From the NCBI GenBank assembly GCA_964019135.1, contig OZ025248.1, positions 17,243,574 to 17,307,573 of the forward strand: DNA of 64,000 nucleotides, read 5' to 3'. Numbering within the stretch: position 1 is the stretch's first letter; the number at the start of each line of letters is the position of its first letter. Made by a program: the position numbers and the translations under genes. This DNA comes from Arenicola marina. Its lineage: Eukaryota; Annelida; Polychaeta; Arenicolidae. The notes below the pieces were generated by a model. The model ran no database searches. It saw nothing but the letters and a program-made list of their open reading frames with translations, and was not told the origin of the DNA. Shown here one piece after another: positions 3,001-53,139 of the stretch.

Positions 3001-6000
3001 TTTGTTCGCAAAGAGTGGTGGGCTACCCTCGGGGAAATGGCTCTACTCTCCCTTCCTTCTCCCATTGACGCGATATGACCAAAGGTGGCTAAACGTCATG
3101 AATATACAACAAACCAATCATAAAGTTACCCCACACAAGTAGTATTTTACATGTAAACCTACACCAGGTTTTAGTTCTGTCTGTTTGTACAACGGGTTGG
3201 GCGTGAAACAAAGAATAAACTAAGCGGGCCTGCGCGGTTTCTCGAGTAAAATGATGATAAGGTCAATATCTTGCCGCCCTCCCGATCCGCTCCACATCTC
3301 CACATCTCCCCGTCACCCACAGCGTCGTCATCCACATCTCTCTGTCGCCCACGCCACATCTTCACATCTCCTCGTCACCCACAGCTTCGTCATCCACATC
3401 TCCCTGTCACCCACTTCATATCTCCACATCTCTCCGTCACCCACAGCGTCGTCATCCACATCTCCCCGTCACCCACAGCTTCGTCATCCACATCTCCCTG
3501 TCACCCACTCTGCATCTCCACATCTCCCCGTCACCCACAGCGTCGTCATCCACATCTCTCTGTCACCCACAGCTTCCTCATCCACATCTCCCTGTCACCC
3601 ACGCCACATCTCCACATCTCCCCGTCACCCACAGCGTCGTCATCCACATCTCTCTGTCACCCACAGCTTTGTCATCCACATCTCCCTGTCACCCACGCCA
3701 CATCTCCACGTCTCTCCGTCACCCACAGCTTCGTCATCCACATCTCTCTGTCACCCACAGTTTCTTCATCCACATCTCCCTGTCACCCACGCCACATCTC
3801 CACATCTCTCCGTCACCCACAGCTTCGTCATCCACATCTCTCTGTCACCCACAGCTTCGTCATCCACATCTCTCCGTCACCCACAGCTTCGTCATCCACA
3901 TCTCTCCGTCACCCATAGCTTCGTCATTCACATCTCTCTGTCACCCACAGCTTTGTCATCCACATCTCTCCGTCACCCACAGCTTCGTCATCCACATCTC
4001 CCCGTCACCCACAGCTTCGTCATCCACATCTCCACATCCCTCCGTCGCCCACAGCTTCGTCATCCACATCTCCTCGTCACCCGCATCGTCGTCATCCACA
4101 TCTCTCTGTCACCCATAGCTTCGTCATCCACATCTCCCTGTCACCCACAGCGTCGTCATCCACATTTCCCTCACACCTACTCCGCGTCTCCACATCTCAC
4201 CGTCACCCACAGCTTCGTCATCCACATCTCCCCGTCACCCACATCGCCGTCATCCACATCTCTCTGTCACCCATAGCTTCGTCATCCACATCTCCCTGTC
4301 ACCCACAGCGTCGTCATCCACATCTCCCTGTCACCCACTCCCCATCTCCACATCTCCCCGTCACCCACAGCGTCGTCATCCACATCTCCCTGTCACCCAC
4401 TCCACATCTCCACATCTCTCCGTCACCCACCCCTTCGTCATCAGCATCTCTCCGTCACCCACAGCTTCGTCATCAGCATCTCCCCGTCACCCACTCCACA
4501 TCTCCACATCTCCCCGTCACGCACAGCTTCGTCATCAGCATCTCCCCGTCACCCACTCCACATCTCCACATTTCCCCGTCACCCACATCATCGTCATCCA
4601 CATCTCCCCGTCACCCACTCCACATCTCCACATCTCCCCGTCACCCACATCATCGTCATCCACATCTCCCCGTCACCCACTCCACATCTCCACATCTCTC
4701 CGTCACCCACCCCTTCGTCATCAGCATCTCTCCGTCACCCACAGCTTCGTCATCAGCATCTCCCCGTCACCCACTCCACATCTCCACATCTCCCCGTCAC
4801 CCACATCATCGTCATCCACATCTCCCCGTCACACACATCATCGTCATCCACATCTCCCCGTCACCCACATCATCGTCATCCACATCTCCCCGTCACCCAC
4901 TCCACATCTCCACATCTCCCCGTCACCCACATCATCGTCATCCACATCTCCCTGTCACCCACTCCACATCTCCACATCTCTCCGTCACCCACCCCTTCGT
5001 CATCAGCATCTCTCCGTCACCCACAGCTTCGTCATCAGCATCTCCCCGTCACCCACTCCACATCTCCACATCTCCCCGTCACCCACATCATCGTCATCCA
5101 CATCTCCCCGTCACACACATCATCGTCATCCACATCTCCCCGTCACCCACATCATCGTCATCCACATCTCCCCGTCACCCACTCCCCATCTCCACATCTC
5201 CCCGTCACCCACAGCGTCGTCATCCACATCTCCCTGTCACCCACTCCACATCTCCACATCTCTCCGTCACCCACCCCTTCGTCATCAGCATCTCTCCGTC
5301 ACCCACAGCTTCGTCATCAGCATCTCCCCGTCACCCACTCCACATCTCCACATCTCCCCGTCACCCACATCATCGTCATCCACATCTCCCCGTCACACAC
5401 ATCATCGTCATCCACATCTCCCCGTCACCCACATCATCGTCATCCACATCTCCCCGTCACCCACTCCACATCTCCACATCTCCCCGTCACCCACATCATC
5501 GTCATCCACATCTCCCCGTCACCCACATCATCGTCATCCACATCTCCCCGTCACCCACTCCAGATCTCCACATCTCCCCGTCACCCACATCATCGTCATC
5601 CACATCTCCCCGTCACCCACATCATCGTCATCCACATCTCCCCGTCACCCACAGCTTCGTCATCCACATCTTCCCGTCACACACTTCACATCTCCACATC
5701 TCCCCGTCACCCACTCCACATCTCCACATCTCCCCGTCACCCACATCATCGTCATCCACATCTCCCCGTCACACACATCATCGTCATCCACATCTCCCCG
5801 TCACCCACATCATCGTCATCCACATCTCCCCGTCACACACATCATCGTCATCCACATCTCCCCGTCACCCACTCCACATCTCCACATCTCCCCGTCACCC
5901 ACTCCACATCTCCACATCTCCCCGTCACCCACTCCACATCTCCACATCTCCCCGTCACCCACATCATCGTCATCCACATCTCCCCGTCACCCACATCATC

Positions 6001-9000
6001 GTCATCCACATCTCCCCGTCACCCACTCCACATCTCCACATCTCCCCGTCACCCACATCATCGTCATCCACATCTCCCCGTCACCCACATAATCGTCATC
6101 CACATCTCCCCGTCACCCACAGCTTCGTCATCCACGTCTCCCCGTCACCCACTCCACATCTCCACATCTCCCCGTCACCCACTCCACATCTCCACATCTC
6201 CCCGTCACCCACATCATCGTCATCCACATCTCCCCGTCACCCACATCATCGTCATCCACATCTCCCCGTCACCCACTCCACATCTCCACATCTCCCCGTC
6301 ACCCACATCATCGTCATCCACATCTCCCCGTCACCCACATAATCGTCATCCACATCTCCCCGTCACCCACAGCTTCGTCATCCACATCTCCCCGTCACAC
6401 ACTTCACATCTCCACATCTCCCCGTCACCCACATCATCGTCATCCACATCTCCCCGTCACCCACTCCACATCTCCACATCTCCCCGTCACCCACATCATC
6501 GTCATCCACATCTCCCCGTCACCCACTCCACATCTCCACATCTCCCCGTCACCCACATCATCGTCATCCACATCTCCCCGTCACACACTTCACATTTCCA
6601 CATCTTCCCGTCACCCACAGCTTCGTCATCCACATCCTGGAGACGCTGGCGCTGATGTTTCGGGAGACGGAGATCATGTCATCCAGAACCCAGATCCTGC
6701 AGGGCTCGGCCGGGCGGGCGGCACGTGACCTGTTGGCAGTCCTGGCGTGTTCCCCGGGACTCGCGTCCACCGCCCAACGCCAATCATCTTGGATCCTGAA
6801 TGACGAGCCAGAGGTACGTGCGGGGGGTTCACCAAAAGGAGGGGGGGTGGTGGGGGTGAGGGTCAAGAGACGATAGGAGGACATGAAATAATGTCAGTAT
6901 TCGTGGCTACTACTTCATGGCCGAGTGGTAGGACAATCGGGTTCCCGCTATCTACAAGAAGCAAAAACGGTTGAATACGATTTGACGCCTTACCCGTTCC
7001 ATCTCCTTACCAATTACAACAAACCGTCATATCGTTGTAACGTGTGTGTACTCTTTTATCCTGAGTGGCCGTAGACACCCGCTACAATACTATAGGTCTA
7101 TCGAATCACCTGCTTTTTGCGTTCTTAGAGCCATGTGACTTCTTCGTTTATCATATTTACTTGAGGTGTTCAGCTTGCAACTAACCTATATCTTCTTCAA
7201 AGTCGTACAGTAAACATAGCTTATGCAATAAATTGTCATATTATGGTAATCTCATAATCACGTAGGTAGAATCCATCAAAGTAACTGCGTTATAGCATAT
7301 TGTTCTATGTTTTCAGTTGACTGAGCTCCAAGACGAGTACATTCGTACCGCGGCGTCAGTATTGTTCGAGCTGCTTCTTGTGGCAGAACAGGTACAGCAC
7401 CCGCTTCAGGAGTAATTTAGGCTCAGCTTGACATTAGGGAACGGCATTGCCATTGCGTTCTCTTGCTTGTTAATTACATATCTTCTTAGTTACGAGATCT
7501 ATTTCCAATAATGAGGATACGGTTTGTATTTACGTAATTCATCTCTGATAATTGCGACACGGTGCATGGCAGCTTGAATCGAATCGCTTGCCTTTCGGGA
7601 GGAAGTATATAATTGTGGGTAAATGCTGGAGTAAACGTTTCGACGGATGTAGATTGCGACATCATTAACGCCCTGATCGTGCGTTGAACAAGCTACCACG
7701 ACGAACCATGGCCATGGAAACGCGTCATGAATATTATATTAGCAGTAATTAGCACAGGTCCGGCTTATATGCATAGGGTGTAAATGATTACTCATTAGGC
7801 AATGGATGATAATATAAAGTAAACAAGTGCTTACGTCATCACCGGCTGTGGGAGGCGTTTAACCCTGGATATCGTGTTAACGCCATGTAAACACTAACTT
7901 CTTCCTGGAAGTCTGTGCCAAGTGTGAACGCCGTGCGAACGCCGTGCGAACGTCGTGCGTACGCCGTGCGAACACCGTGCTATGTGTGGGCGCTGTGTGA
8001 ACGCCGTGCTATGTGAGGGCGCTGTGTGAATGCCGTGCTATGTACGTGTGGGCGCTGTGTGAACGCCGTGTTATGTGTGGGCGCCGTGTCAACGCCGTGC
8101 TATGTGTGGGCGCCGTGTGAACGCCGTGCTATGTGTGGGCGCCGTGTGAACGCCGTGCGCTGTGTGGGCGCCGTGTGAACGCCGTGCTATGTGTGGGCGC
8201 CGTGTGAACGCCGTGCTATGTGTGGGCGCCATGTGAACGCCGTGCTATGTGTGGGCGCCGTGTGAACGCCGTGCTATGTGTGGGCGCCGTGTGAACGCCA
8301 TGCCAAGTGTGAACGCCGTACGAACGCCATGCCAAGTGTGAAGGCCTTGCGAACCTGGATGAACGTCATGTATACTTCCACGCCGCTTCCTTCCACATGG
8401 CGTTCACACGAGATCCACAGGGCGTTCACACGAGATCCACACGGCGTTCACACGATATCTACATGGCGTTCACACGAGATCCACACGGCGTTCACACGAT
8501 ATCCACATGGCGTTCACACGAGATCCACACGGCGTTCACATTAGACACATTCAGACGTCACAAAACGTTCACACGTGTCTAGTTCACACACAATTAACAG
8601 ACCGGTCGCACTGGGAGTGGTTGTGCATGTTTGATACTGAATCTCTCAGTGTACTTGTTTTATTGCAGGCCTATTGGAGTTCTAGCAACGTGAGCACGAT
8701 CAGCGTTAACTGGTTAGTCCAGCAGCTTGATGAACTACCCACAACGGTGAGACACGATCAGATAACATCAAATTCAGCATATATCAACGCACCAAATTTA
8801 CTTATTGCAAAATATCCGACAATCGAGATATTTTTCCTCTCCAACTCCGATTTGGCCTCACGAAAAGGGGGCGTTTTGTCCCCTAAATTCAAATTTTGCC
8901 GACTAAAGGGCTACTTTGCCATCAAACGTCCGATATGCAATCAGAAAAACTGATTTTCCTTCCAGTAAATGGTCTTTGATTTGGTTGACATTTCCAACGG

Positions 9001-11531: not shown

Positions 11532-14500
11532 CTATGAGCACGGTTCGCATGTGCAGCGACTGATCCAGAGCGCCTGGGTGAGTCCTCTGACGGAGCTGCA
11601 CTGGATATCCAGAGACACGGTCTCCGTCACAGTCGGCCTGCAGCACAAGCCAGAACACAGGCCGCAGTAGCGCCATCTGTAGGGCAGGACGCTGATGCAA
11701 TCGTCGTTAAACCGCAGGTATTTAGGGTTCGATTCCCGATAGGTGGCGCCATAAGCGGCGCAGTATTGTCGTCGACTGTGGTGGCGCCACTGTAGTGTGA
11801 ATAATAAGAATACGATCATGGTGCATGTTATTGCAACGACAAACGAGTGTTAAATTGCTTGAATAACTAAAATTTACGCCATTTTTGTAAAACATGAGTT
11901 CCGAATAAACATCAGTGCGCTGTCTATAATATCTATGATGTAAACTCAGCGGAAGTGAAGGGAATAGTGAAGTGACGGGCAACCAACGGTTGTCAGACTT
12001 TTGCCACTTACACCGCTGAAGTCAGCATGACAGGGGCGAAGTCTGCACAGGCGGAGTTCCAACTCCATCCGACAGAGGGGGTTGTGGTTGCTGAGGCGCG
12101 TGGAGTACCCGGCGTCACAGCTGGCCGAGCAGTCGCTCCACTCGGTGGCTTCCGGTGTACAGTTGGCGTTGGGCGCCAGGGTGGTCGGCGTGCTGGAGGC
12201 TATCACGCCCAGCGTGAACCCCAAAGAGGCAGTCCGTGGCTCAATTGTCGAACCAGCTGAAAAAATACAATTTTCTAGCAGGAAGTGTTCTTTCTTCATA
12301 AGCGACTAAATATCGAAATGATATGCCAAGCGTCGGAATGTCACTTCCTTCGTTTGAAGATGTATATATTGCCGTAATATTGGCTTGCAAAAGTGATCTG
12401 TGACTTATTCAACTTTGGTTGGATTGAAATTTGCAGTGACTGGTACATGATATAGCGATAAATCACTCACCTGTAAATGTAAAAGGCAAGTCGTCCTGTA
12501 TAATATTGGCGACATTGAAGAATTGCAGAAGGTATCTGAATACCGCTTCCTCGTCCCACTGAGTTAGATTGCTATAGCGTCCAGCCGGTGGCGACCCCAA
12601 GCGGCACTGCGGACAGACTTCCTGCGTTGGGAACTGGACCTTTGGATGTTGGGGATCTTCCGTGTCGTCTCCGTGCAGGCGGTGATTGGCTCTGAAGGAG
12701 GTCACGCGGTAACCACATTGATTAACATTCATTTACATATGACCCATATTTTGGCCTGACGTAACCAATATACAATTTAAGCTAGATGACAGTGACCCTT
12801 ATCGCTATAATTTACCTCTTACTTGCCTTCCATAGCTAGAGGACCGCGGCCCGGTTTACCTGTTTGCGCCTTCCATAGCCAGAGGAGCGCGGCTCGGTTT
12901 ACCTGTTTTATGCCTTTCATAGCCATAGAACCGCGGCCCGATTTACCTGTTATGCGTTTTCCATAGCTAGAGGACCGCGGCCCGGTTTACCTGTTATTCG
13001 CCTTCCATAGCCAGAGAACCGCGGCCAAGTTTACCTGTTATGCGCCTTCCATAGCCAGAGAACCGCGGCCCAGTTTACCTGTTATGCGCCTTCCATAGCC
13101 AGAGAACCGTGGCCCAGTTTACCTGTTATGCGCTTTCCATAGACAGAGAACCGCGGGCCAATTTACCTGTTATGCGCCTTCCATAGCCAGATAACCGCGG
13201 CCCAGTTTACCTGTTATGCGTCTTCCATAGCCAGAGAACCGTGGCCCAGTTTACCTGTTATGCGCCTTCCATAGCCAGAGAACCGCGGCCCAGTTTACCT
13301 GTTATGTACCTTCCATAGCTAGAGGACCGCGGCCCAGTTTACCTCTTATGCGCCTTCCATAGCCAGAAAACCGCAGCCCAGTTTACCTGTTATGCGCCTT
13401 CCATAGCCAGAGAACCGCGGCCCAGTTTACCTGTTATGCGCCTTCCATAGCGAGAGAACCGCGGCCCAGTTTACCTGTTATGCGCCTTCCATAGCGAGAG
13501 AACCGCGGCCCAGTTTACCTGTTATGCGCCTTCCATAGCGAGAGAACCGCGGCCCAGTTTACCTGTTATGCGCCTTCCATAGCGAGAGAACCGCGGCCCA
13601 GTTTACCTGTTATGCGCCTTCCATAGCCAGAGAACCGCGGCCCAGTTTACCTGTTATGCGCCTTCCATAGCCAGAGAACCGCGGCCCAGTTTACCTGTTA
13701 TGTGCCTTCCATAGCCAGAGAACCGCGGCCCAGTTTACCTGTTATGTGCCTTCCATAGCCAGAGAACCGCGGCCCAGTTTACCTGTTATGCGCCTTCCAT
13801 AGCGAGAGAACCGCGGCCAAGTTTACCTGTTATGTGCCTTCCATAGCCAGAGAACCGCGGCCCGGTTTAGATTGACTGAGTCCTGTAGGTCTCTTCCCAT
13901 TGTCTCCGCCATATTACCGAAGTGGTCGGCGCACTCTCGGCATCCCAGGAAGTGGCGTACGTAGCCCTGGATGGCCCGAAGCGCCGCGACACCTGCACAG
14001 ACGCTTGAATACTTTAGACCAGCTGTATCGATCCTGTGGCGCAACGGCAATGGCATAATTCATATCAATGATCGACGTCGTAAGTAATAAAGGTATCCGA
14101 AGTCCGATTTGCAGTCTTGTCCAACCCATATTTCGAGTTAATTTGCCGGGGTTTTTCGGGCAGGCCGGGTTTTTTCAGGATTCCTAAAGAAGTCCACCTA
14201 GTTTTCATGTTTCCCTTTCACCGTTTACGTATGTGAGGCAACGCAGGAAACAGGAACGCTTGAGTATTTAGCACGGTCTATGTACCTTCGACAGTGGAGA
14301 ACGATATATCCTAGACATGTTTGGTTGATTGGGTTAAATAGGACGGTTTACCCACTGTGTGCCCCAACGGGAAGTTTAAAGGGTCCAGACGAGCCATGTC
14401 TCGGGGATTAACTCCCCAATCTTTGCACACAAAAAAAGCTGCGATCTTTATCCTGTACAATTCTTTGCACTGGTGAAGCCCGAACCACGAACCTGCCACT

Positions 14501-17500
14501 TGGGGTGGCCTCGTAAGGCACACTCGACTACGGAGGCGACCTGACATACTGACTACGTTACGCCTTAATGAGGAGCGATTGGCTACCCTACCGCTGGCGA
14601 GGTTTCCGGTGCGGTATACTTGGACCGTCAGGGCGTGAAACGTCATCCACAAGCTGCACGGATATCCACGAAAACGAGGCTCGCTGCCTTGGCAACCAGT
14701 CCAGCGTAGGAGATTCGGAACGTGGGCTTCCGTGGTCTGTATCGGAATAAGAGGCATGGGTCAATGTTAGCCTTGCCAAATATCCTCATCGAAGCTACCC
14801 AGCCCATATATCTTCCTTGCCGCTAGTCAGCGATATCATAACGCACCCATTATAATGCTCGACCACCTCTTGTGACGATATCTATTCATAGATATCCGAT
14901 GTTAAAGTTGCATGTGGAGTTCTTTCCCGCCAAAACTAAGCCAAGGCAAAATTTATATCAAAATTTGCAGAAAACTCGATTGTTTCATTCTATAAATTCA
15001 GAAACCTGATAAACATCGCTGTTTCGGCTGTGGTGTGGCAAACGTGTCTATCCCGGGACACCACAGAACTCGGTCGCGGCACTGCTACTTATACCAAAGC
15101 ATCGCGAAGCACACTGCAGTCTGGTATGGGTGGAGTATAGATAAAAGAAGTCTTGAATGATTCAAGGACTGATTCTTATATGTATTTTGACCTCATTAGT
15201 TTTGGCGGGAAAGAGCTCGACTTGCAACTTTAACTGTGAATAAGTTATACGGGCACATTATGATGAATAATATTTATATTACCGTTCGGCTCAAAAACTG
15301 TTCGCACATGTCAGTCGACAAGGAATCTGAAAAGACCCCGCCATTGGTAGTCGTGGGAATATGCTACAGTTTATGGCAGTGTTTGAAGTGGAGACTGACA
15401 TCACTATAATACTGATGCCCTATATTATTAAAATGGCAATATTTAAAGTATAGAGATGGTCAAACTACGGTCGATGTGCTCACCTGCATTTCGGTAATCA
15501 TATTGACCCATTCCTCGCCAGTCATGTCATGGCCGACGGCGTTCAAAGTCCGGTCAACTTCCTCCAGAAAGTTGATTAGTGTGTGTTGTCCCGGGTGGAA
15601 CTGTATCATAAAAGACGTATTATTATTTCGCCTTGCATGATCATGCACCAAGACTATAATATATTGGCCAGCAACTCAGACCCATTCCGACTCAAGCATT
15701 TGACCAACACAACAAAGTTAGGGATTAAAGAAATTGTGCGGGCGTATACAGTAATGATTAAGCAGAGAGTGCAGTCATAATACGAGCATTGTCCCAACTA
15801 CCTGTGCCAGAATGTGGATGTATGCCTTGAGGGCCTGTAGTGTCGGGCCGGCGATGTTCTGGTGGGCCCCCACCTCCACCCACAGCGAGTAGTACAGACT
15901 GGACTCCAGGTCCTGCATGTGGAGGCCGTCTGAAGGTCTGAATGAGGGGCCAATGGGAAGCTATTAGACCGGAGACATGCAGTCAGATGGTAGACTGACA
16001 GGGGACACAAATTGTTATCCAGGGTTGAATAGACATTTGCAGAACAAGCTTTATGATAAAAGGGCTATTGTTGTGTGGAATGAATGTAGGCTATAAAACG
16101 ATGCAGTATTGTGGCCCGCGAATTGACATGATCACAATTGCATTATGTGCATGTCACAAAATGAGAAGAATGTAATCAAACAGACGCTTCTTGTCCTAAG
16201 AACAATGACCTTAACAATAAGTACTTTTATATTCACTGTAATTCCTCAAGAAGTTCTGTTAAACTCACAGTACTACTTAAACAAATACGGTTAAACACAC
16301 GTACAGTAGTTCCTCAAAATCAGGTACTCTCAATGTATTCATTGTTGTAACTAAAGATCAGCTTACAAAAAAAATCACTACCTAAAATAGTCTCTTCACG
16401 TCTCTCAGTGGTTAACCTTACATACTTACTCATAGGGTACCAGTGTACTATGTACACCAGGGGATATGGTGATCTCTGGCGCAGGTGTAACCGGCGTCGG
16501 TGATGCGGCTTGGTTCACTGTATCCCTCCGCAGGTCGCGTCGTATGGCGTCCACCATGCCGTATCGGGTCGAATCTCTGCAATGAGTACATCCTTTTAAT
16601 GTCTTCGCAGGCTTCTCCACAACCACCATGTCAAAGGGGAAGATACCTAAATAAATAGATATGAAACTGAATCGTGTGCAAACATTAGGAATCAAGGTTT
16701 GTGACATTACGTCAATGTAAAAGCTGGCCACTGTGGGTTATTTAAAGTGATGACGCCATGTTTACTGGGGTTCACACATTATTTGATATAGTATTATGTA
16801 CCCACGTGGCCACCAGACTGGTCGTTATAGACAGGTGTACACAGTAGAGGTTACCCACGTGGCCATCAGACTGGTCGTTATAGACAGGTGCACACTGTAG
16901 AGGTTACCCACGTGGCCATCAGACTGGTCGTTAGAGACAGGTGCACACAGTAGAGATTGCCCACGTGGCCATCAGACTGGTCGTTATAGACAGGTACACA
17001 CAGTAGAGGTTACCCACGTGGCCAACAGACTGGTCGTTATAGACAGGTACATGCAGTAAAGGTCACCCACGAGGTCATCAGACTGGTCGTTATAAACCGG
17101 TGTACACAGTAGAGGTTACCCAGGTGGTTATCAGACTGGTCGTTATAGACAGGTGTACACAGTAGAGGTTACCCACGTGGCCATCAGACTGGTCATTATA
17201 GACAGATGAACACAGTAGAGGTTACACACGTGGCCATCAGAGTGGTCGTAATAGATAGGTGCACAGAGTAGAGGTTATCCACGTGGCCATCAGACTGGTC
17301 GTTAGAGAAAGGTACACACAGTAGAGGTTACCCACGTGGCCAACAGGCTGGTCGTTATGGATAGGTGCACACAGTAGAGGCTACCCACGTGGCCATCAGA
17401 CTGTTCGTTAGAGACAAGTGCACACAGTAGAGGTCACCCACGAGGTCATCAGACTGGTCGTTATAGACAGGTGCACACAGTAGAGGTTACCCACATGGCC

Positions 17501-20500
17501 ACCAGACTGGTCGTTATAGACAGGTGCACACAGTAGAGATTACCCACGTGGCCATCAGACTGGTCGCTATAGACAGGTGCACACAGTAGACGTTACCCAC
17601 GTGGCCATCAGACTGGTCGTTATAGACAGGTGCACACAGTAGAGATTATCCACGTGGCCATCAGACTGGTCGCTATAGACAGGTGCACACAGTAGACGTT
17701 ACCCACGTGGCCACCAGACTGGTCGTTATAGACAGGTGCACACAGTAGAGATTACTCACGTGGCCATCAGACTGGTCGCTATAGACAGGTGCACACAGTT
17801 GACGTTACCCACGTGGCCATCAGACTGGTCGCTATAGATAGGTGCACACAGTAGAGTTTACCCACGTGGCCATCAGACTGGTCGTTATAGACAGGTACAC
17901 ACAGTACAGGTTACCCACGTGGCCACCAGACTGGTCGTTATAGACAGGTGCACACAGTAGAGATTACCCACGTGGCCACCAGACTGGTCGTTATAGACAG
18001 GTGCACACTGTAGAGGTTACCCACGTGGCCATCAGACTGGTCGTTATAGACAGGTGCACGCAGCAGAGGTTACCCACGTGGCCAGAAGGCTGGAGCTGCC
18101 ATCGGGATTGACTCTGTACACCGCTGGCAGCCGTTCCGGAGTGTTCTCAAAGTTTGCGTTACTCATACGGCCGATCACAGTTGTAGGATACACTTCGGAG
18201 AAGTCTAAGATCGCCTTTAAAAACACATGAAAACGGTATAATTGTAATTTTAAAACTTAAACGTGATTTAAATTTTGGGAATTTAACGATTTTGCCATCG
18301 CCCAACGTCGCCTTACCCAAACAAAACAAAATAATGTTTCGATCACCAAGTCATAACAATCATGTACGTTTGCTTTAGTAGTTCAGGATTTCCAAACCAC
18401 TTTACCATTTTACCCAGTTCGGTGGGGTTGTGGCTGTCCTCTATAATCACATACACGTGGGACGTTCCAGGTCGCCGGTACCAGGCTTGGAGGTCTCGGT
18501 AGTCACTGTGGGATACAATGGGTCAATCTGCAATAATAATTAACTACTCCCAATCGTTAATGGCATCAACGTTAATTGTTTGCTAATTAAGTACACGTGA
18601 TATTGGGTTATCATGATGCGATCGTTGGCGTATCACGTGCATTGCCTGTCGAGATTCGAACCTGAGACTTTACCCGCCTCCGGCAAGTCACGATTCTTTT
18701 TCTCATTGTTCTTATGGCAAGAGGCGTCGGAATTTCAACGCTTCCAGGCAGGAAAATGGGTTGAATTGGAGCGTCAGCAACCGTTATTGATGATAATTAA
18801 TACTAAGGCTTATATCACTTGAGAACGGAAATAATGGCGCTCCGACTTAATAATGGTAGCGGATTTGCCAGCAACCTATATATAATTTATAGATTAATAC
18901 GTAAATACAAATAGGACATACCGGTTGTCCGTCACCTGTACTCACGTGGGGTTGGGGCAAGGAAAGAGGGTATACATGCTGCTTTTGTCAAGTGGGAGAT
19001 TCTGATTTTAACCCATATAGCCAAGTTGACATGCTGTTATGTTTGACTTCATCAAAGACACAATAGACACGGGCCTCATTTATATAACGGCGCCGGTTAC
19101 AGGGTTACATCATGGTGTAACCTTCTCTTCATCGTCAGCCGCCACTCGGTGGTCTCTACGTACGTGTAAATTTTTGCATCCAAGAATATTTATGAGAAGC
19201 ATGCAACTATATTAAAGGGAACAGCTAGCCCTCTAACGCTGCTTTACCGATTCATATAATACCCAATTGTCTATCCTCCAAATTACAGAATTTGTTGTCC
19301 TATCTATAGCTCACAATAAAATTTAGAAGTGACGCCCGGCACGATTTCGCCGCCTACCCGGGCGCCAGCCCTTCTTGGAGGTGTGTCCGCGATTGACCAA
19401 TCAGAAGGCGATACTCTAATTTATTCAAACCGGAAATTGCGCCTATTGTGTGAGCAAAACAAGAGCGCGTGGTCATTGCTAATATAAATAGCTGCGATTC
19501 TAACTCCAATCATGGCATTGTTGCGGAGTCAATCGTCGCAAGGCGTATATCAATTTGTTTGGACGGTACTTTTCTATGAAACACTAAGATCATGGTCTAC
19601 TGCGCGGCTTGGAACTACCGCTGTTCATCCGTAAGTCGCGGCCCTGATCTCTCTCTCCGCGAGTGATAATATAAGGCGGTGCCACATGAATAGTCACAAT
19701 ACGCGTCACTGCTCCCGGCAAAATGGCGCTCTGCTTGACATTGCTGGGGGCGGTTTGCCTTATTTTTTTTCTCCTTACCAGTCAGCCGAAACGAAGCTTC
19801 AACACTCGCCAATTTAATTTCAAGATGTAAACTTTCGGTGCAGATCGCGATTAAATTAGGTTAGACGCCCGCTTTAACTGTGGAATGGCTCAATATAAGA
19901 GCAGTGCTGCCATCTGGCGCCAGAGACGAAGACCTACCTGTAGAATCCCACCCTGGGCCTTTCATTGGACGGATGTGTTCGTTCCACTGTTTCCACATAG
20001 TGTAGGGTGTCCTGTCGCACGGCCACTAACGTCTTCCTGGATGTGAACTTCTGGCCACCTGTCATTGTGGCCATGGCGGGTGGGAAGAACTATGACACAG
20101 ACAGACAGACAATTAACAGTCGGCGAAATGCACTTGTGATAGATATTCTGAAAACCACACTAAACTGCCTGTATATAACACAAGTGCGGATCCAGGACTG
20201 TGCAACAATACTTAAATTGGAACCTAAAACACGAGGGGGTCAACCAAAAATCTCCATATCAGATGGCTTACGTTTTGCATATAAAAAAGGCATTACCGCT
20301 ACAAAACGGGAGGGAGTGGGAGGGGGTGGGGTGGGGGTCAGGACCAGGATCCCTTCCGTGGGCTCTACCATGGAAGATGCACCGCTGACACACAGCCGTA
20401 CCTTGATGGTGGGGTAACCCCAGACGTTCTGCTGGCGACACAGCGCGGCATTGCTGGCCTCTGAGCAGGCCACGGTGGCCACACGAACAGCCTTGGACCA

Positions 20501-22821
20501 CCCTGCAACAAGGAAGAAAGTCAATGACCACCTCAACTTACACGCTGGTCAAGGGTCCCGGTCAACCCAAGGTCACGATAGCCACGTGGGTCGATCCAAG
20601 CGCGTCACCCTGGCAACCGGAAAAGTAAGTTAATTTTTTCCGCTACGATGGTTCGAGGGCAAAGGCCACGCAATGTCGTACCACATCTTGGATACCAAAC
20701 GGGATGACCAGACAAGTAACTTATTCTCAGCTTATATAGAACACGTGTTCTTGTGTAATTCATCGTCAAATCCTAGGAATTAGATGGTAAGAGCTGTAAA
20801 CTGCATTTGCACAATCTGTAATAGATCTATGTATATTTCAGAAGACATCATTCATTGTAGAGTCGTTGTAGCATCTAAATGTGAAATATAGACCAACTTG
20901 AATGAACGGTTTCAAAACAGCATTTTGACCGATGTATTGGTCCTGTTATAATTTCGTAGATGAAAATCGGATTATGTTCAAACCATAGAGCCATAACAGT
21001 CTTTGTATGACAAGTCACACCTTTGCTAGGCCTGCTAGAGTCTCGTCTTAGATGTAAGCTCTGTAGCAATATATATAGTAATATGAATATTTTCGCTTAC
21101 TGCATTTTAATGGTTTCACTTAGAATCACTTCTGATGTTTATCCTGTTTCATGTGTTTGTTATTTGCTTACTACGGGCGGGAACTCATGTTGTGATATTA
21201 TGGGTCCAGGCCGAGGTCATTTAGATGAGGAGGAAATAACATTGAACATATGCTAGCACCTTTGGCCTGAATGATGCGTAACTTATCGCGGGTACTGCAC
21301 AAACAGGTTCGTAACCGTTTCAAGGAATAGTCCACCAAAGTGAACCCTTTTTAACGTTTCATATCCACATGATGTAGCACCAGACATGCAGACGGAGGCC
21401 GTTTTACCAGTAACTGAGTTTTTTCGCAGAACGTAAATTCCTTGCATCGCCTGACATGCAGTAACAGCTCGTAAAGTAATTAGTCGCCCGGGATGCTCGT
21501 TGACTCTGGTCCGCCCTGCCTTCACTCATCCCGCCGCCCACCGCCAGGCCTGTCGAGAATTGCTAATAAAGACCAGACAGCTAGGAATACCGGGATCAAG
21601 GGTATGCCATGTGGGAGGGGGAGGGGGAGGGGTGGGGAAGGGGAGGGGGCCGGCGCGGGCCTACGTGGGAGGGGACAGTTTTGAAAAGTTCATTCGGTAT
21701 TTCTACGATGAATATAATAGATCTATGTGGGTGTTTCACGTCAGTTTTGTGGACACATGCACCTATTTACGGTACACCTCCTGCCTCATTTGTCGCCAAA
21801 ATGTCAAATGACGCATTTCATTGAGCTGTGAGGGGACATGGTGACGCCGGTTTACCTCATACAATTTTGCTAGGCGTTCGCGCTCGATCCAAGACGTGGT
21901 CATGCATCTCCACAATAAAAAAATGAGTGTCTTCTGGATGTGGAAATCGCGACATAATGATGACACTAAGATTGTGCAATCTTTGTGTCCTCGTTATATC
22001 GCGATTTCCACATCCAGAATACACTCGTTTTATTTTCTTGTAGATATGCGCGTAAACGTCTTGGGATCGAGCGCGAGCGCCCAGTAAAATTGTACGAGGT
22101 AAACCGGTAAAACCGGGAAATTTGCCGCTTCCGCCCTGTAGCGCCATCTGTTGACAAAGTTGCCGCTTGTCACTTCGAATGGCTGCGCGCATTTTACGAA
22201 TGAAATGCGGAATATCGCCGGTATTGTGGACATCAACAGTTCTTCAAAGAAACAAACTATACGTAAATAGATAGTTTAAGGTATGTAGAATTCAAATATA
22301 ATAAGGATTGGACGTGGTATTCACCCACAAAGTGATACTAGTCAGATTAAAGTGGAGGGGTTTCAAATCGCTGAGGATTTGCAGGCTGCACTTCAGGACC
22401 CTGGCCGAGCGGTAGCGAGGCTTGGGTTCTTCAGGGCTATACAGACAGAGGCTAAACCTAAACCAACCAACCAAACAATTACCGACCGACATCCCCGTCC
22501 AGTTCTGTGATATATATAATAATCTTTGATACCTTTAATGTCGTGCGCCAGTTGTCTCCATGTGGGTGCGAACCTTTGGCAATGTCCACACCATGCGGCG
22601 TAGAACTCGACCAGCCAGGCATGGGGTGTCCCCAGCAAGTGCGCCTCGAACTCATCCGCCCCGTTCACCTGCACGATGGGTTCGCTGGCGGCGTACAGGC
22701 TCTGGGACGCCACACCGCAGGGCGTACACAGCGTGACCGCCAACAGCCACAGGAATGACCCCCCTAGCAGGCCTGGGGCGAGCGAACCCGCCACCGGCGA
22801 CTGTTTCCCTGGACGAGCCAT
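11532..22821 (-). CDS. QSOX: Quiescin sulfhydryl oxidase fused to CCN-type TSP1 and cystine-knot domains (13 exons, 737 aa)
   Basis: QSOX enzymes make disulfides in secreted proteins and pass the electrons to oxygen through FAD. Exons, 5' to 3': 22821-22533, 20502-20402, 20089-19938, 18505-18406, 18214-18078, 16576-16430, 15937-15802, 15600-15484, 14736-14592, 13992-13827, 12691-12471, 12256-12012 and 11789-11532 (stop). All are GT-AG; the phases agree and the total is 2,214 nt. Residues 1 to about 40 look like a signal peptide. A thioredoxin domain carries WCGHC (78-81). The Erv/ALR domain has [17 protein letters not shown], then CREC (459-462), [12 protein letters not shown] for FAD, and CPQC (523-526). 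QSOX normally continues to a membrane anchor. Here exon 12 (571-652) encodes a TSP1 repeat ([16 protein letters not shown]) and exon 13 (653-737) a ten-cysteine knot ([10 protein letters not shown]), both with CCN spacing, and no membrane helix follows. The exon 5 donor (CAC|GTGGGT) is the weakest border, chosen by phase. Confidence 0.93.
12828..13870 (-). repeat. 44-bp minisatellite made of the 3' end and donor site of QSOX exon 10
   Basis: About 23 copies of a 44-bp unit. Read on the minus strand, each copy is the last 38 or so bases of exon 10, which encode [12 protein letters not shown], followed by the donor AG|GTAAAC. The exon ends at 13827 inside the first copy and the remaining copies fill the intron. 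The intronic GTAAAC of each donor matches CTAAAC in the exon at the start of the unit, so the donor itself looks like the product of tandem duplication. Nearly all copies keep CAG|GTAAAC. Using any donor but the first would read straight into TAA. Confidence 0.95.
14385..14560 (-). mobile_element. Diverged SINE-like copy in a QSOX intron
   Basis: The stretch shares the layout of the SINE copies read on the minus strand. It has GGATAAAGATC, a TTCGGGC/GGTTCG box and a CCCC-rich segment in similar order. The match is much weaker than between the other three copies, and no target duplication was found. It may be an old copy or a related family. Confidence 0.4.
14902..15233. mobile_element. TTAA-flanked MITE in a QSOX intron
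   Basis: A 324-bp element (14906-15229) has terminal inverted repeats of about 34 bp. One end reads AGTTGCATGTGGAGTTCTTT and the other, inverted, AGTTGCAAGTCGAGCTCTTT; both continue CCCGCCAAAACTAA, with three mismatches overall. TTAA flanks both ends (14902-14905 and 15230-15233), the target duplication typical of piggyBac-type transposons. The terminal bases are not the usual CCY of that superfamily, so the family is tentative. There is no coding capacity, so it would depend on a transposase made elsewhere. Confidence 0.8.
16795..18085 (-). repeat. 53-bp minisatellite that includes the donor site of QSOX exon 5
   Basis: About 24 copies of a 53-bp unit. Read on the minus strand each contains TGGCCACGTGGGTAACCTCT, which is the last bases of exon 5 (TGGCCAC) plus the intron start. 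Exon 5 ends at 18078 in the copy next to the gene, so this array repeats a donor border too, though only about 7-10 bases of each unit are exon. Single-base variants are common, and most copies keep CCACGTGGGTAA. Confidence 0.92.
19214..19435. repeat. Dispersed repeat of unknown type, copy 1 (QSOX intron)
   Basis: This stretch and 63776-64000 match over about 220 bp. Shared blocks include CTCTAACGCTGCTTTACCGA, TATCCTCCAAATTA, CTCACAATAAAATTTAGAAG, ACGATTTCGCCGCCTAC and GGCGATACTCTAATTTATT. There is no open frame, and I found no terminal repeats. It is probably a non-autonomous mobile element. Confidence 0.75.
21847..22107. mobile_element. Foldback element (long hairpin) in QSOX intron 1
   Basis: Two arms of about 128 bp are near-perfect inverse copies. 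They open with CCGGTTTACCTC at 21847 and close with GAGGTAAACCGG at 22107. Shared inner blocks are TCGCGCTCGATCC, TTCTGGATGTGGAAATCGCG and AAGATTGTGCAATCTT near the centre at about 21978. Loop sequence is almost absent. This is typical of foldback MITEs. No target duplication was recognised. Confidence 0.8.
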
Positions 22822-36760: not shown

Positions 36761-38866
36761 TACAAATACTGGACAGTGAATTAGTCTGATTTATGAACAA
36801 ATACTGGGCAGTGAGTTAGTCTGATTTACGAACAAATGCTGGGCAGTGAATTAGTCTGATTTACGAACAAATACTGGGCAGTGAATTAGTCTGATTTATG
36901 AACAAATACTGGGCAGTGAGTTAGTCTGATTTACGAACAAATACTGGACAGTGAATTAGTCTGATTTATGAACAAATACTGGGCAGTGAGTTAGTCTGAT
37001 TTACGAACAAATGCTGGGCAGTGAATTAGTCTGATTTACGAACAAATACTGGGCAGTGAGTTAGTCTGATTTACGAACAAATACTGGGCAGTGAGTTAGT
37101 CTGATTTACGAACAAATACTGGGCAGTGAATTAGTCTGATTTACGAACAAATACTGGGCAGTGAATTTGTCTGATTTACGAACAAATACTGGGCAGTGAA
37201 TTAGTCTGATTTACGAACAAATACTGGGCAGTGAGTTAGTCTGATTTACGAACAAATACTGGGCAGTGAATTAGTCTGATTTACGAACAAATACTGGGCA
37301 GTGAATTTGTCTGATTTACGAACAAATACTGGGCAGTGAAGTAGTCTGATTTACGAACAAATACTGGGCAGTGTGTTAGTCTGATTTACGAACAAATACT
37401 GGGCAGTGTGTTAGTCTGATTTACGAACAAATACTGGGCAGTGAATTTGTCTGATTTACGAACAAATACTGGGCAGTGAAGTAGTCTGATTTACGAACAA
37501 ATACTGGGCAGTGTGTTAGTCTGATTTACGAACAAATACTGGGCAGTGAATTAGTCTGATTTACGAACAAATACTGGGCAGTGTGTTAGTCTGATTTACG
37601 AACAAATACTGGGCAGTGAATTTGTCTGATTTACGAACAAATACTGGGCAGTGAATTAGTCTGATTTACGAACAAATACTGGGCAGTGAAGTAGTCTGAT
37701 TTACGAACAAATACTGGGCAGTGTGTTAGTCTGATTTACGAACAAATACTGGGCAGTGAGTTAGTCTGATTTACGAACAAATACTGGACAGTGAATTAGT
37801 CTGATTTATGAACAAATACTGGGCAGTGAGTTAGTCTGATTTACGAACAAATGCTGGGCAGTGAATTAGTCTGATTTACGAACAAATACTGGGCAGTGAG
37901 TTAGTCTGATTTACGAACAAATACTGGGCAGTGAATTAGTCTGATTTACGAACAAATACTGGGCAGTGAATTTGTCTGATTTACGAACAAATACTGGGCA
38001 GTGAATTAGTCTGATTTACGAACAAATACTGGGCAGTGAGTTAGTCTGATTTACGAACAAATACTGGGCAGTGAATTAGTCTGATTTACGAACAAATACT
38101 GGGCAGTGAATTTGTCTGATTTACGAACAAATACTGGGCAGTGAAGTAGTCTGATTTACGAACAAATACTGGGCAGTGTGTTAGTCTGATTTACGAACAA
38201 ATACTGGGCAGTGAATTAGTCTGATTTACGAACAAATACTGGGCAGTGAATTTGTCTGATTTACGAACAAATACTGGGCAGTGAGTTAGTCTGATTTACG
38301 AACAAATACTGGGCAGTGAATTTGTCTGATTTACGAACAAATACTGGGCAGTGAATTAGTCTGATTTACGAACAAATACTGGGCAGTGTGTTAGTCTGAT
38401 TTACGAACAAATACTGGGCAGTGAATTAGTCTGATTTACGAACAAATACTGGGCAGTGAATTAGTCTGATTTACGAACAAATACTGGGCAGTGAGTTAGT
38501 CTGATTTACGAACAAATACTGGGCAGTGAATTAGTCTGATTTACGAACAAATACTGGGCAGTGAATTTGTCTGATTTACGAACAAATACTGGGCAGTGAA
38601 GTAGTCTGATTTACGAACAAATACTGGGCAGTGAGTTAGTGTGATTTACGAACAAATACTGGGCAGTGAATTAGTCTGATTTACGAACAAATACTGGGCA
38701 GTGAGTTAGTCTGATTTACGAACAAATACTGGGCAGTGAATTAGTCTGATTTACGAACAAATACTGGGCAGTGAATTAGTCTGATTTACGAACAAATACT
38801 GGGCAGTGAATTAGTCTGATTTACGAACAAATACTGGGCAGTGAATTAGTCTGATTTACGAACTGA
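36761..38866. repeat. 35-bp minisatellite
   Basis: About 60 copies built on CTGATTTACGAACAAATACT and GGGCAGTGAATTAGT. The variable position before CTGATT (ATTAGT, GTTAGT, TGTTAGT, ATTTGT, AGTAGT) recurs in blocks, which indicates multi-unit duplications. No frame is open. Confidence 0.95.
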
Positions 38867-43887: not shown

Positions 43888-46800
43888 CCGTCAATGGCTG
43901 CTCTGAGGCAGTGGGGAGAGAGCCTCTGTTACACTGTAGGCGGCCGTCAATGGCTGCTCTGAGGCAGTAAGGAGAGCCTCTGTTGCACTGGAGGCGGCCG
44001 TCAATGGCTGCTCTGAGGCAGTAAGGAGAGCCTCTGTTACACTGGAGGCGGCCGTCAATGGCTGCTCTGAGGCAGTGGGGAGAGCCTCTGTTACACTGAA
44101 GGCGGCCGTCAATGGCTGCTCTGAGGCAGTTAGGAGAGCCTCTGTTACACTGTGGGCGGCCGTCAATGGCTGCTCTGAGGCAGCGGGGAGAGCCTCTGTT
44201 GCGCTGGAGGCGGCCGTCAATAGCTGCTCTGAGGCAGTGGGGAGAGCCTCTGTTACACTGGAGGCGGCCGTCATTGGCGGCTCTGAGGCAGTGGGGAGAG
44301 CCTCTGTTGCGCTGGAGGCGGCCGTCAATGGCGGCTCTGAGGCAGTGAGGAGAGCCTCTGTTACACTGGAGGCGGCCGTCAATGGCTGCTCTGAGGCAGT
44401 GAGGAGAGCCTCCGTTACACTGGAGGCGCCCGTTAGTGGCTGCTCTGAGGCAGTGAGGAGAGCCTCTGCTACACTGGAGGCGGCCGTCAATGGCTGCTTT
44501 GAGGTAGTGAGGAGAGCCTCTGTTACACTGGAGGCGGCCGTCAATCGCTGCTCTGAGGCAGTGAGGAGAGCCTCTGTTACACTGGAGGCGGCCGACAATG
44601 GCTGTTCTGAGGCAGTGGGGAGAGCCTCTGCTACACTGGAGGCGCCCGTTAGTGGCTGCTCTGAGGCAGTGAGGAGAGCCTCTGTTACACTGGAGGCGCC
44701 CGTCAATGGCTGCTCTGAGGCAGTGAGGAGAGCCTCTGTTACACCGGAGGCGCCCGTTAGTGGCTGCTCTGAGGCAGTGAGGAGAGCCTCTGCTACACTG
44801 GAGGCGCCCGTTAGTGGCTGCTCTGAGGCAGTGAGGAGAGCCTCTGTTACACGGTAGGCGGCCGTCAATGGCTGGTCTGAGGCAGTAAGGAGAGCCTCTG
44901 TTAAACTGGAGGCGGCCGTCAATGGCTGGTCTGAGGCAGTAAGGAGAGCCTCTGTTACACTGTAGGCGGCCGTCAACGGCTGGTCTGAGGCAGTAAGGAG
45001 AGCCTCTGTTACACTGGAGGCGGCCGTCAATGGCTGCTCTGAGGCAGTGAGTAGAGCCTCTGCTACACTGTAGGCGCCCGTTAGTGGCTGCTCTGAGGCA
45101 GTGAGGAGAGCCTCTGTTACACTGGAGGCGGCCGTCAATGGCTGCTCTGAGGCAGTGAGGAGAGCCTCTGTTACACTGGAGGCGCCCGTCAATGGCTGCT
45201 CTGAGGCAGTGAGGAGAGCCTCCGTTACACTGGAGGCGCCCGTCAATGGCTGCTCTGAGGCAGTGAGGAGAGCCTCTGTTACACTGGAGGCGGCCGTCAA
45301 TGGCTGCTCTGAGGCAGTGAGGAGAGCCTCCGTTACACTGGAGGCGCCCGTCAATGGCTGCTCTGAGGCAGTGAGGAGAGCCTCTGTTACACTGGAGGCG
45401 GCCGTCAATGGCTGCTCTGAGGCAGTGAGGAGAGCCTCTGTTACACTGGAGGCGCCCGTCAATGGCTGCTCTGAGGCAGTAAGGAGAGCCTCTGTTACAC
45501 TGGAGGCGGCCGTCAATGGCTGGTCTGAGGCAGTAAGGAGAGCCTCTGTTGCACTGGAGGCGGCCGTCAATGGCTGGTCTGAGGCAGTAAGGAGAGCCTC
45601 TGTTACACTGGAGGCGGCCGTCAATGGCTGCTCTGAGGCAGTGAGGAGAGCCTCTGTTACACTGGAGGCGGCCGTCAATGGCTGCTCTGAGGCAGTGAGG
45701 AGAGCCTCTGTTACACTGGAGGCGGCCGTCAATGGCTGCTCTGAGGCAGTGAGAAGAGCCTCTGCTACACTGGAGGCGCCCGTTAGTGGCTGCTCTGAGG
45801 CAGTGAGGAGAGCCTCTGTTACACGGTAGGCGGCCGTCAATGGCTGCTCTGAGGCAGTGAGTAGAGCCTCTGCTACACTGGAGGCGCCCGTTAGTGGCTG
45901 CTCTGAGGCAGTGAGTAGAGCCTCTGTTACACTGGAGGCGGCCGTCAATGGCTGCTCTGAGGCAGTGAGTAGAGCCTCTGCTACACTGGAGGCGCCCGTT
46001 AGTGGCTGCTCTGAGGCAGTGGGGAGAGCCTCTGTTACACTGTAGGCGGCCGTCAATGGCTGCTCTGAGGCAGTAAGGAGAGCCTCTGTTACACTGGAGG
46101 GGCCCGTCAATGGCTGGTCTGAGGCAGTAAGGAGAGCCTCTGTTACACTGTAGGCGGCCGTCAATGGCTGCTCTGAGGCAGTGAAGAGAGCCTCTGTCAC
46201 ACTGGAGGCGGCCGTCAATGGCTGCTCTGAGGCAGTGAGAAGAGCCTCTGTTACACTGGAGGCGCCCGTTAGTGGCTGCTCTGAGGCAGTGAGGAGAGCC
46301 TCTGTTACACTGGAGGCGGCCGTCAATGGCTGCTCTGAGGCAGTCAGTAGAGCCTCTGCTACACTGGAGGCGCCCGTTAGTGGCTGCTCTGAGGCAGTGA
46401 GGAGAGCCTCTGTTACACTGGAGGCGCCCGTTAGTGGCTGCTCTGAGGCAGGAAGGAGAGCCTCTGTTACACTGGAGGCGCCAGTCAATGGCTGCTCTGA
46501 GGCAGTGAGGAGAGCCTCTGTTACACTGGAGGCGCCCGTTAGTGGCTGCTCTGAGGCAATAAGGAGAGCCTCTGTTACACTGTAGGCGGCCGTCAATGGC
46601 TGCTCTGAGGCAGTGAGGAGAGCCTCTGTTACACTGGAGGCGCCCGTCAATGGCTGGTCTGAGGCAGTAAGGAGAGCCTCTGTTACACTGTAGGCGGCCG
46701 TCAATGGCTGCTCTGAGGCAGTGAGGAGAGCCTCTGTTACACTGGAGGCGCCCGTCAATGGCTGCTCTGAGGCAGTGAGGAGAGCCTCCGTTACACTGGA

Positions 46801-49800
46801 GGCGCCCGTCAATGGCTGGTCTGAGGCAGTGAGGAGAGCCTCTGTTGCATTGGAGGCGGCCGTCAATGGCTGCTCTGAGGCAGTGGGGAGAGCCTCTGTT
46901 ACACTGGAGGCGGCCGTCAATGGCTGCTCTGAGGCAGTGAGGAGAGCCTCTGTTACACTGGAGGCGGCCGTCAATGGCTGCTCTGAGGCAGTGAGTAGAG
47001 CCTCTGCTACACTGGAGGCGCCCGTTAGTGGCTGCTCTGAGGCAGTAAGGAGAGCCTCTGCTACACTGGAGGCGGCCGTTAGTGGCTGCTCTGAGGCAAT
47101 AAGGAGAGCCTCTGTTACACTGGAGGCGCCCGTCAATGGCTGCTCTGAGGCAGTGAGGAGAGCCTCCGTTACACTGGAGGCGCCCGTCAATGGCTGGTCT
47201 GAGGCAGTGAGGAGAGCCTCTGTTGCATTGGAAGCGGCCGTCAATGGCTGCTCTGAGGCAGTGAGAAGAGCCTCTGCTACACTGGAGGCGCCCGTTAGTG
47301 GCTGCTCTGAGGCAGTGAGGAGAGCCTCTGTTACACTGGAGGCGGCCGTCAATGGCTGCTCTGAGGCAGTGAGTAGAGCCTCTGCTACACTGGAGGCGCC
47401 CGTTAGTGGCTGCTCTGAGGCAGTGAGGAGAGCCTCTGTTACACTGGAGGCGGCCGTCAATGGCTGCTCTGAGGCAGTGAGTAGAGCCTCTGCTACACTG
47501 GAGGCGCCCGTTAGTGGCTGCTCTGAGGCAGGAAGGAGAGCCTCTGTTACACTGGAGGCGCCAGTCAATGGCTGCTCTGAGGCAGTGAGGAGAGCCTCTG
47601 TTACACTGGAGGCGCCCGTTAGTGGCTGCTCTGAGGCAATAAGGAGAGCCTCTGTTACACTGTAGGCGGCCGTCAATGGCTGCTCTGAGGCAGTGAGGAG
47701 AGCCTCTGTTACACTGGAGGCGCCCGTCAATGGCTGGTCTGAGGCAGTAAGGAGAGCCTCTGTTACACTGTAGGCGGCCGTCAATGGCTGCTCTGAGGCA
47801 GTGAGGAGAGCCTCTGTTACACTGGAGGCGCCCGTCAATGGCTGCTCTGAGGCAGTGAGGAGAGCCTCCGTTACACTGGAGGCGCCCGTCAATGGCTGGT
47901 CTGAGGCAGTGAGGAGAGCCTCTGTTGCATTGGAGGCGGCCGTCAATGGCTGCTCTGAGGCAGTGGGGAGAGCCTCTGTTACACTGGAGGCGGCCGTCAA
48001 TGGCTGCTCTGAGGCAGTGAGGAGAGCCTCTGTTACACTGGAGGCGGCCGTCAATGGCTGCTCTGAGGCAGTAAGGAAAGCCTCTGTTACACTGGAGGCG
48101 GCCGTCAATGGCTGCTCTGAGGCAGTAAGGAGAGCCTCTGTTACACTGGAGGCGGCCGTCAATGGCTGCTCTGAGGCAGTAAGGAGAGCCTCTGTTACAC
48201 TGGAGGCGGCCGTCAATCGCTGCTCTGAGGCAGTGAGGAGAGCCTCTGTTACACTGGAGGCGGCCGACAATGGCTGTTCTGAGGCAGTGGGGAGAGCCTC
48301 TGTTACACCGGAGGCGCCCGTTAGTGGCTGCTCTGAGGCAGTGAGGAGAGCCTCTGCTACACTGGAGGCGCCCGTTAGTGGCTGCTCTGAGGCAGTGAGG
48401 AGAGCCTCTGCTACACTGGAGGCGCCCGTTAGTGGCTGCTCTGAGGCAGTGAGGAGAGCCTCTGTTACACGGTAGGCGGCCGTCAATGGCTGGTCTGAGG
48501 CAGTAAGGAGAGCCTCTGTTACACTGGAGGCGGCCGTCAATGGCTGGTCTGAGGCAGTAAGGAGAGCCTCTGTTACACTGGAGGCGGCCGTCAATGGCTG
48601 GTCTGAGGCAGTAAGGAGAGCCTCTGTTACACTGTAGGCGGCCGTCAACGGCTGGTCTGAGGCAGTAAGGAGAGCCTCTGTTACACTGGAGGCGGCCGTC
48701 AATGGCTGCTCTGAGGCAGTAAGGAGAGCCTCTGTTACACTGGAGGCGGCCGTCAATGGCTGCTCTGAGGCAGTGAGTAGAGCCTCTGCTAAACTGTAGG
48801 CGCCCGTTAGTGGCTGCTCTGAGGCAGTGAGGAGAGCCTCTGTTACACTGGAGGCGGCCGTCAATGGCTGCTCTGAGGCAGTGAGGAGAGCCTCTGTTAC
48901 ACTGGAGGCGGCCGTCAATGGCTGCTCTGAGGCAGTGAGGAGAGCCTCTGTTACACTGGAGGCGCCCGTCAATGGCTGCTCTGAGGCAGTGAGTAGAGCC
49001 TCTGCTACACTGTAGGCGCCCGTTAGTGGCTGCTCTGAGGCAGTGAGGAGAGCCTCTGTTACACTGGAGGCGGCCGTCAATGGCTGCTCTGAGGCAGTCA
49101 GGAGAGCCTCTGTTACACTGGAGGCGCCCGTCAATGGCTGCTCTGAGGCAGTGAGGAGAGCCTCCGTTACACTGGAGGCGCCCGTCAATGGCTGCTCTGA
49201 GGCAGTGAGGAGAGCCTCTGTTACACTGGAGGCGGCCGTCAATGGCTGGTCTGAGGCAGTAAGGAGAGCCTCTGTGGCACTGGAGGCGGCCGTCAATGGC
49301 TGGTCTGAGGCAGTAAGGAGAGCCTCTGTTACACTGGAGGCGGCCGTCAATGGCTGCTCTGAGGCAGTGAGGAGAGCCTCTGTTACACTGGAGGCGGCCG
49401 TCAATGGCTGCTCTGAGGCAGTGAGGAAAGCCTCTGTTACACTGGAGGCGGCCGTCAATGGCTGGTCTGAGGCAGTGAGGAGAGCCTCTGTTGCACTGGA
49501 GGCGGCCGTCAATGGCTGGTCTGAGGCAGTAAGGAGAGCCTCTGTTACACTGGAGGCGGCCGTCAATGGCTGCTCTGAGGCAGTGAGGAGAGCCTCTGTT
49601 ACACTGGAGGCGGCCGTCAATGGCTGCTCTGAGGCAGTGAGTAGAGCCTCTGCTACAATGGAGGCGCCCGTTAGTGGCTGCTCTGAGGCAGTGAGGAGAG
49701 CCTCTGTTACACTGGAGGCGGCCGTCAATGGCTGCTCTGAGGCAGTGAGGAGAGCCTCTGCTACACTGGAGGCGCCCGTTAGTGGCTGCTCTGAGGCAGT

Positions 49801-52422: not shown

Positions 52423-53139
52423 TTGATGGATAATTAGTAGCAACATTATTGGAGGGGCAGGGGGTGGGAATGAGAGCTTGCTGGAAAGTCTAGGTTAATT
52501 TGACTTTACTAAGTTATAGGCCTAATAAAAGTTGTCTTAGCGACACATGTTTTCGTTGTGATACACCAAACCAGTTATTCATCCATTCTTCCCAATTGCA
52601 GAAAAAACGATATACTAAACTCACAACGACGTCATTCGTTGTGAGATCGTTACATCGCTACAGAAAATGTGGAACTAGTTTATATCATACAAATAGGAAA
52701 GCAAATCAATGGAAGACCCCCATTCCAAAAGGTACCAAATAGCACCCAAGAGACAAATTACGTCACGAACAAACCTCTCGACGCCAGAGAACCAGAAACT
52801 CGCCTCCATCATCACCCCTAGAGGTCACGACCTTGAGAGGCGTGGCACGTGGCGGGGGCAGTGGCACCAGGTCAGAACATTTAGTAACATGGCGGTCTCC
52901 AGGCGGGAAAACCCTTCTCCACGGTCGTTATCCGGCAAAGTGAAGATACATGGGCTGCTGCCAGTAATGCCCGCCCTGTGACCTTGACCTCGGGCTCAGA
53001 TTACTTGCCCTGTCCCTCGTGTGGACTCAGATGACTCATGCGTCATGTCGTCACGCGGCCTAAGTCTCAATTTAGCCAGTCGACATAGAGATCCAGCCAG
53101 ACTGCCCAATCCCCGCGGTCCGCGCGTACTTACGCCCAC
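52423..53139. other. Spacer; no gene recognised
   Basis: About 700 bp of unique sequence between two large arrays. The open frames at 52500-52742 and 52709-52981 (+) have no recognisable domain. Confidence 0.4.

Follow-up and report, generated by a model that had tools for sequence, protein, structure and literature searches.

A Predicted QSOX Sulfhydryl Oxidase with a CCN-Type TSP1 and Cystine-Knot Tail in the Annelid Arenicola marina

QSOX enzymes are defined by a Trx domain plus an Erv domain, and the N-terminal Trx CXXC motif is CGHC in most animals, as stated in passages of a 2013 evolutionary survey of 228 sequences from 132 species (PMC3616962). The C-terminus of QSOX1 is a membrane helix or, via splicing, a short soluble tail (passages of PMC12839041 and PMC3616962). 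In vertebrates, both the anchored and the soluble forms come from one QSOX1 gene, and their differences in place and function are described as poorly explored; QSOX1 is reported to be active both in the Golgi and extracellularly, and to support laminin assembly (parts of PMC12839041). CCN genes follow a five-exon rule with a module per exon. Reported ligands of the CCN TSP1 and CT modules are sulfated glycoconjugates, heparin, some integrins, and VEGF; the CT domain has been implicated in dimerisation (parts of PMC2683937). Here I describe a gene that combines the two families, found in a stretch of 64,000 nucleotides of Arenicola marina DNA (assembly GCA_964019135.1, contig OZ025248.1, positions 17,243,574 to 17,307,573), which is called the window below. 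The mitochondrial COX1 sequence places the host among the annelids, not among the amphioxus, tunicates, or hemichordates at which an earlier note on this DNA had hinted. Translated with the invertebrate mitochondrial code, COX1 from contig C762 shares 91% identity with Pilargis wolfi (Pilargidae), which ranks first among 7999 scored sequences; Saccocirridae, a cluster of Phyllodocida, and Namalycastis come after it, all named matches as far as P0070 are annelid, and gastropods rank below them, so that by COX1 the annelid host would probably belong to Phyllodocida. The product resembles QSOX1/QSOX2 (mouse structure 3T58) in having a Trx domain with CGHC, a FAD_SOX/pseudo-Erv region, an Erv domain with CXXC, and a C-terminal CXXC, but it has a CCN TSP1-CT tail at the place where QSOX1 has its membrane helix or short tail. 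It shares the TSP1_CCN repeat, the ten-cysteine CT domain, and the rule of one module per exon with CCN1-6, whereas it lacks IGFBP and VWC and carries a catalytic QSOX part in front. Other CTCK proteins (VWF CTCK, sclerostin, and norrin) are also among the closest known systems. Has such a protein been described before? Among the literature matches listed, which covered few subscription papers, no description of a QSOX joined to CCN, thrombospondin, or cystine-knot modules was found, in line with the earlier note, and the main text of PMC3616962 mentions neither thrombospondin nor annelids nor Capitella.

As listed in Table 1, the gene occupies 22821 to 11532 of the minus strand, and its 13 exons have GT-AG borders and matching phases which join them into one open frame. 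The predicted protein runs from a hydrophobic N-terminus (hydropathy 1.8; signal-peptide-like by hydropathy alone) through Trx, FAD_SOX/pseudo-Erv, Erv, and CPQC into a linker (35% Ser/Thr/Pro), a CCN-type TSP1 repeat, and a ten-cysteine knot. The frame, the cysteine spacings, and the junctions 12471/12256 and 12012/11789 are as the earlier note gave them, except that the start of exon 6 is corrected. Numerous alternative joins between exons 5 and 6 preserve the frame. A start at 16576 (737 amino acids) is preferred to one at 16666 (767 amino acids), because the former aligns to the relative P0001 and others without an additional stretch; the 16666 start has GT-AG borders and is open, but it was set aside.

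Table 1. Predicted exons of the QSOX-CCN fusion gene (positions in the window).
Feature	Position	Strand	Content
Exon 1	22533..22821	-	Signal-peptide-like hydrophobic N-terminus; Trx1 begins, with WCGHC
Exon 2	20402..20502	-	Trx1
Exon 3	19938..20089	-	Trx
Exon 4	18406..18505	-	Trx2 region
Exon 5	18078..18214	-	Trx2 region; aligned with relatives
Exon 6	16430..16576 (16666 also open)	-	Thr/Pro-rich linker preceding FAD_SOX
Exon 7	15802..15937	-	FAD_SOX/pseudo-Erv
Exon 8	15484..15600	-	FAD_SOX/pseudo-Erv
Exon 9	14592..14736	-	Start of Erv
Exon 10	13827..13992	-	Erv with CREC and LWLWKAHNR
Exon 11	12471..12691	-	End of Erv and C-terminal CPQC; phase 1 at end
Exon 12	12012..12256	-	Linker and CCN-type TSP1 (TSP1_CCN 6.3e-15); phase 1 in, phase 0 out
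Exon 13	11532..11789	-	Ten-cysteine CT cystine knot and stop codon TAG; phase 0 in

Two minisatellites overlap the ends of exon 10 (12811-13869, 44 bp x 24) and exon 5 (16799-18084, 53 bp x 24), and their units duplicate the exon end including the 5′ splice site. Exon 10 and intron 10 together hold 24 AGGTAA sites; the first alone gives the full protein, and the other 23 would lead to a stop at 497 amino acids.

The front part of the protein has the domains of a QSOX. Pfam searches returned Thioredoxin (5.2e-18), FAD_SOX (1.6e-21), and Evr1_Alr (1.6e-17), with a QSOX_pErv match under its cut-off, and the core aligns to mouse QSOX1 at 6.8e-86 across residues 41-563. The three CXXC motifs, WCGHC in Trx, CREC in Erv, and the C-terminal CPQC, are intact. 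In a predicted structure of the relative P0001, the core folds as a QSOX and matches mouse QSOX1. Based on this structural match and on the alignment, the core of the fusion is expected to carry out thiol oxidation. Five diverged fusions share without exception the cysteines of the three CXXC motifs and a large part of the Erv core, an indication that the enzyme is functional. Judged by the domains that define the family, the predicted gene belongs to QSOX and its tail derives from CCN; it is not itself a CCN protein, as Pfam found no IGFBP or VWC module ahead of TSP1 in the fusion protein.

The tail has the marks of CCN proteins. The TSP1 repeat scores 55.6 bits with TSP1_CCN (cut-off 27), while the general TSP_1 profile gives 18.5, under its cut-off; its cysteine spacing is 9-3-14-8-4. 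The knot has ten cysteines in the CCN order with a spacing of 20-10-2-3-0-13-14-1-2. When sequences were shuffled with the cysteines fixed, none of 1000 shuffles scored as high as the real sequence, whether TSP1 was compared with two distinct CCN sequences or CT with three. Pfam and PDB sequence searches gave no useful match for the knot domain, and the tail was unfolded in the first AlphaFold model. A profile comparison supports the knot, and the tail fold was predicted with moderate confidence, with VWF CTCK as the best match at a weak Foldseek E value. Taken from these sequence comparisons and models, the presence of a CT cystine-knot domain in the tail is supported. TSP1 and CT each occupy a single exon, as in CCN genes. 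The tail showed no transmembrane helix: its top 19-residue hydropathy is 1.1, compared with 2.1-2.8 in five anchored QSOX proteins. An alternative membrane exon was sought with a hydropathy scan from 12470 to 9000; one stop-free hydrophobic 19-mer lies close to 11849, where intron 12 ends in a pyrimidine-rich stretch, and another close to 9485. Both look like chance occurrences, though one might, less probably, serve an isoform.

Is this architecture found elsewhere? Two protein searches yielded 49 distinct proteins, six of which (P0001, P0002, P0003, P0004, P0142, and P0143) have the QSOX domains and TSP1_CCN in one open reading frame (ORF), running from Erv into TSP1. P0003 came from the first search only, P0004 is truncated behind TSP1, and P0142 is without its N-terminal part. 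Since the frames are uninterrupted on longest contigs of 2.3-2.8 kb, the data suggest that these contigs are transcripts. All six complete tails, including that of the window gene, have 16 cysteines. P0001 probably comes from annelids near Paralvinella palmiformis, because its aligned part is 74% identical to P0168 of that species, a short gene model which ends inside the linker.

A tree of 31 QSOX proteins was built with all seven fusion tails removed. The six fusions, the window gene, Capitella teleta P0166, and P0144 form a nine-row clade with support of 100/100, apart from the sampled molluscs, arthropods, hemichordate, and vertebrates; the same nine rows were grouped when the tail had been removed from only one of the seven rows. 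The fusion trait needs two changes on this tree, owing to the short rows P0166, a partial model cut off within Erv, and P0144. The ORF of P0144, a close relative of the fusion P0002, ends soon after Erv, which could reflect tail loss, a shorter form, or a truncated contig. In a comparison of tails, six fusion tails were separated from three CCN tails at 94/94, with long branches flagged and with two of the CCN rows sharing one TSP1 exon. Thus, the union of QSOX with a CCN C-terminal half claimed by the earlier note is supported by the sequence, by the six relatives, and by the QSOX clade. As relatives of the joined protein occur in other samples, the fusion looks real and old. Judged from these sequences, it is retained in several distant lineages, and a single old fusion inherited by descent is the simplest reading.

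The same genome contains ordinary members of both families. In a genome-wide TSP1_CCN search, in which 150 of 171 candidates were scored, at least three places were above the cut-off: the window, C19:16119507, and a weak one on C1 about 40 Mb away. The surroundings of C19:16119507 hold exons for IGFBP, VWC, and TSP1, and two for CT, that belong to an ordinary CCN gene (L017-L018). This gene seems to have two alternative last exons, each with a complete CT knot and a stop codon, and the two TSP1-CT tails are 69% identical with the shared TSP1 exon included, which suggests two isoforms. In the C19 CCN gene, phase 0 is possible at the end of the TSP1 exon and is the entry phase of both CT exons, which matches exons 12 and 13 of the fusion. 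Its TSP1 exon is entered in phase 1 at the first of two neighbouring AGs, as in exon 12, or in phase 0 at the second, and three of the five GT sites that precede the stop codon of the VWC frame would leave phase 1. Given these CCN phases and the phase-1 end of QSOX exon 11, I infer that the fusion could have arisen when two CCN exons joined the phase-1 border behind exon 11. C19 also has an ordinary QSOX gene (L004) with the same catalytic core, but its open frame continues from Erv into a membrane helix. Matches on C4 gave no tblastn match to three QSOX queries and look like ALR.

What might the tail do? I propose, with a probability of roughly 0.6, that the gene encodes a secreted and soluble QSOX whose TSP1 and CT modules stand where a membrane anchor would be, and that this tail holds disulfide formation in the matrix or on client proteins. 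Two CCN exons probably became attached behind the last QSOX exon. The Trx/Erv part would then make disulfides in clients, while heparan-sulfate proteoglycans, integrins, or cystine-knot growth factors may be bound by the CCN tail, which might also dimerise. This would keep the oxidase within the extracellular matrix or at its client proteins, with disulfides forming there rather than mainly in the Golgi. Tethering to the matrix or to growth factors is argued by analogy, from the reported binding by CCN modules and the extracellular role of QSOX1. A wider version holds that annelids have, since their early history, used a CCN-aimed oxidase, distinct from the membrane-anchored QSOX, to form or rearrange disulfides at the assembly sites of matrix, cuticle, tube, and growth factors; I would put this only tentatively, slightly below even odds. 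The strict heparin-binding pattern xBBxBx counts against a matrix-bound oxidase, as it occurs in just one of the seven tails and is missing from five of the six relatives, one of which is cut short.

The missing heparin pattern would suit an enzyme that acts mainly in the Golgi like vertebrate QSOX1, with a real fusion whose tail helps only in folding, in dimerisation, or in recognising clients, for instance CCN-like or mucin-like knot proteins. Golgi activity of QSOX1, besides that outside the cell (parts of PMC12839041), and the implication of CT domains in dimerisation (parts of PMC2683937) fit this explanation as well. However, the complete tails are CCN-like and basic, and no membrane helix was found in the tail, although no search aimed at retention signals was made. 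On balance, a Golgi enzyme seems unlikely, if worth serious weighing. It is still less probable that the protein serves mainly as a CCN-like signalling or matricellular factor, with QSOX in the place of IGFBP and VWC and with enzyme activity as a secondary trait. The TSP1 and CT cysteines are complete in every full tail, as such a factor would have them, but the invariance of the CXXC cysteines and much of the Erv core in the diverged fusions speaks against a secondary role of the enzyme.

Could there be two genes instead of one? QSOX might end at exon 11, with exons 12 and 13 being a CCN fragment, another gene, or a product of read-through. The gene structure was predicted from the genomic DNA of the host, and the early end of the P0144 ORF is compatible with a shorter QSOX. 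In contrast, intron 11 is just 214 bp long, and the six relatives have both parts within one ORF. The earlier note had also considered a tail with IGFBP and VWC exons of its own; neither exon was found in the window, and the four IGFBP places of the genome are on C8, C19, C14, and C17, with no match on C1. When the whole window was searched with IGFBP, VWC, and membrane-tail queries, the one match was a chance VWC match with stops and an E value of 0.96. Two neighbouring genes are therefore very improbable. That the locus is a pseudogene in decay or an artefact of the assembly, for which the large minisatellites in introns 5 and 10 might be cited, is hardly credible given that the 13-exon frame is open, the cysteines and motifs are preserved, and the architecture recurs in other sources.

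The architecture would be new to both QSOX and CCN evolution and would suggest a natural design by which a catalyst of disulfide formation can be positioned at a selected place outside the cell. The membrane-helix QSOX and the matrix-module QSOX are separate genes in this genome, and their roles could be studied apart.

The window is also rich in long minisatellites outside the gene. That at 43888-52421 consists of 158 copies of a 54 bp unit and has an open frame of 2851 amino acids on the minus strand, and others lie at 53125-55717, 36762-38863, and 3292-6636. On the plus strand, positions 1-2150 show coding-looking stretches with splice-like borders, as judged by eye, which are perhaps part of another gene.
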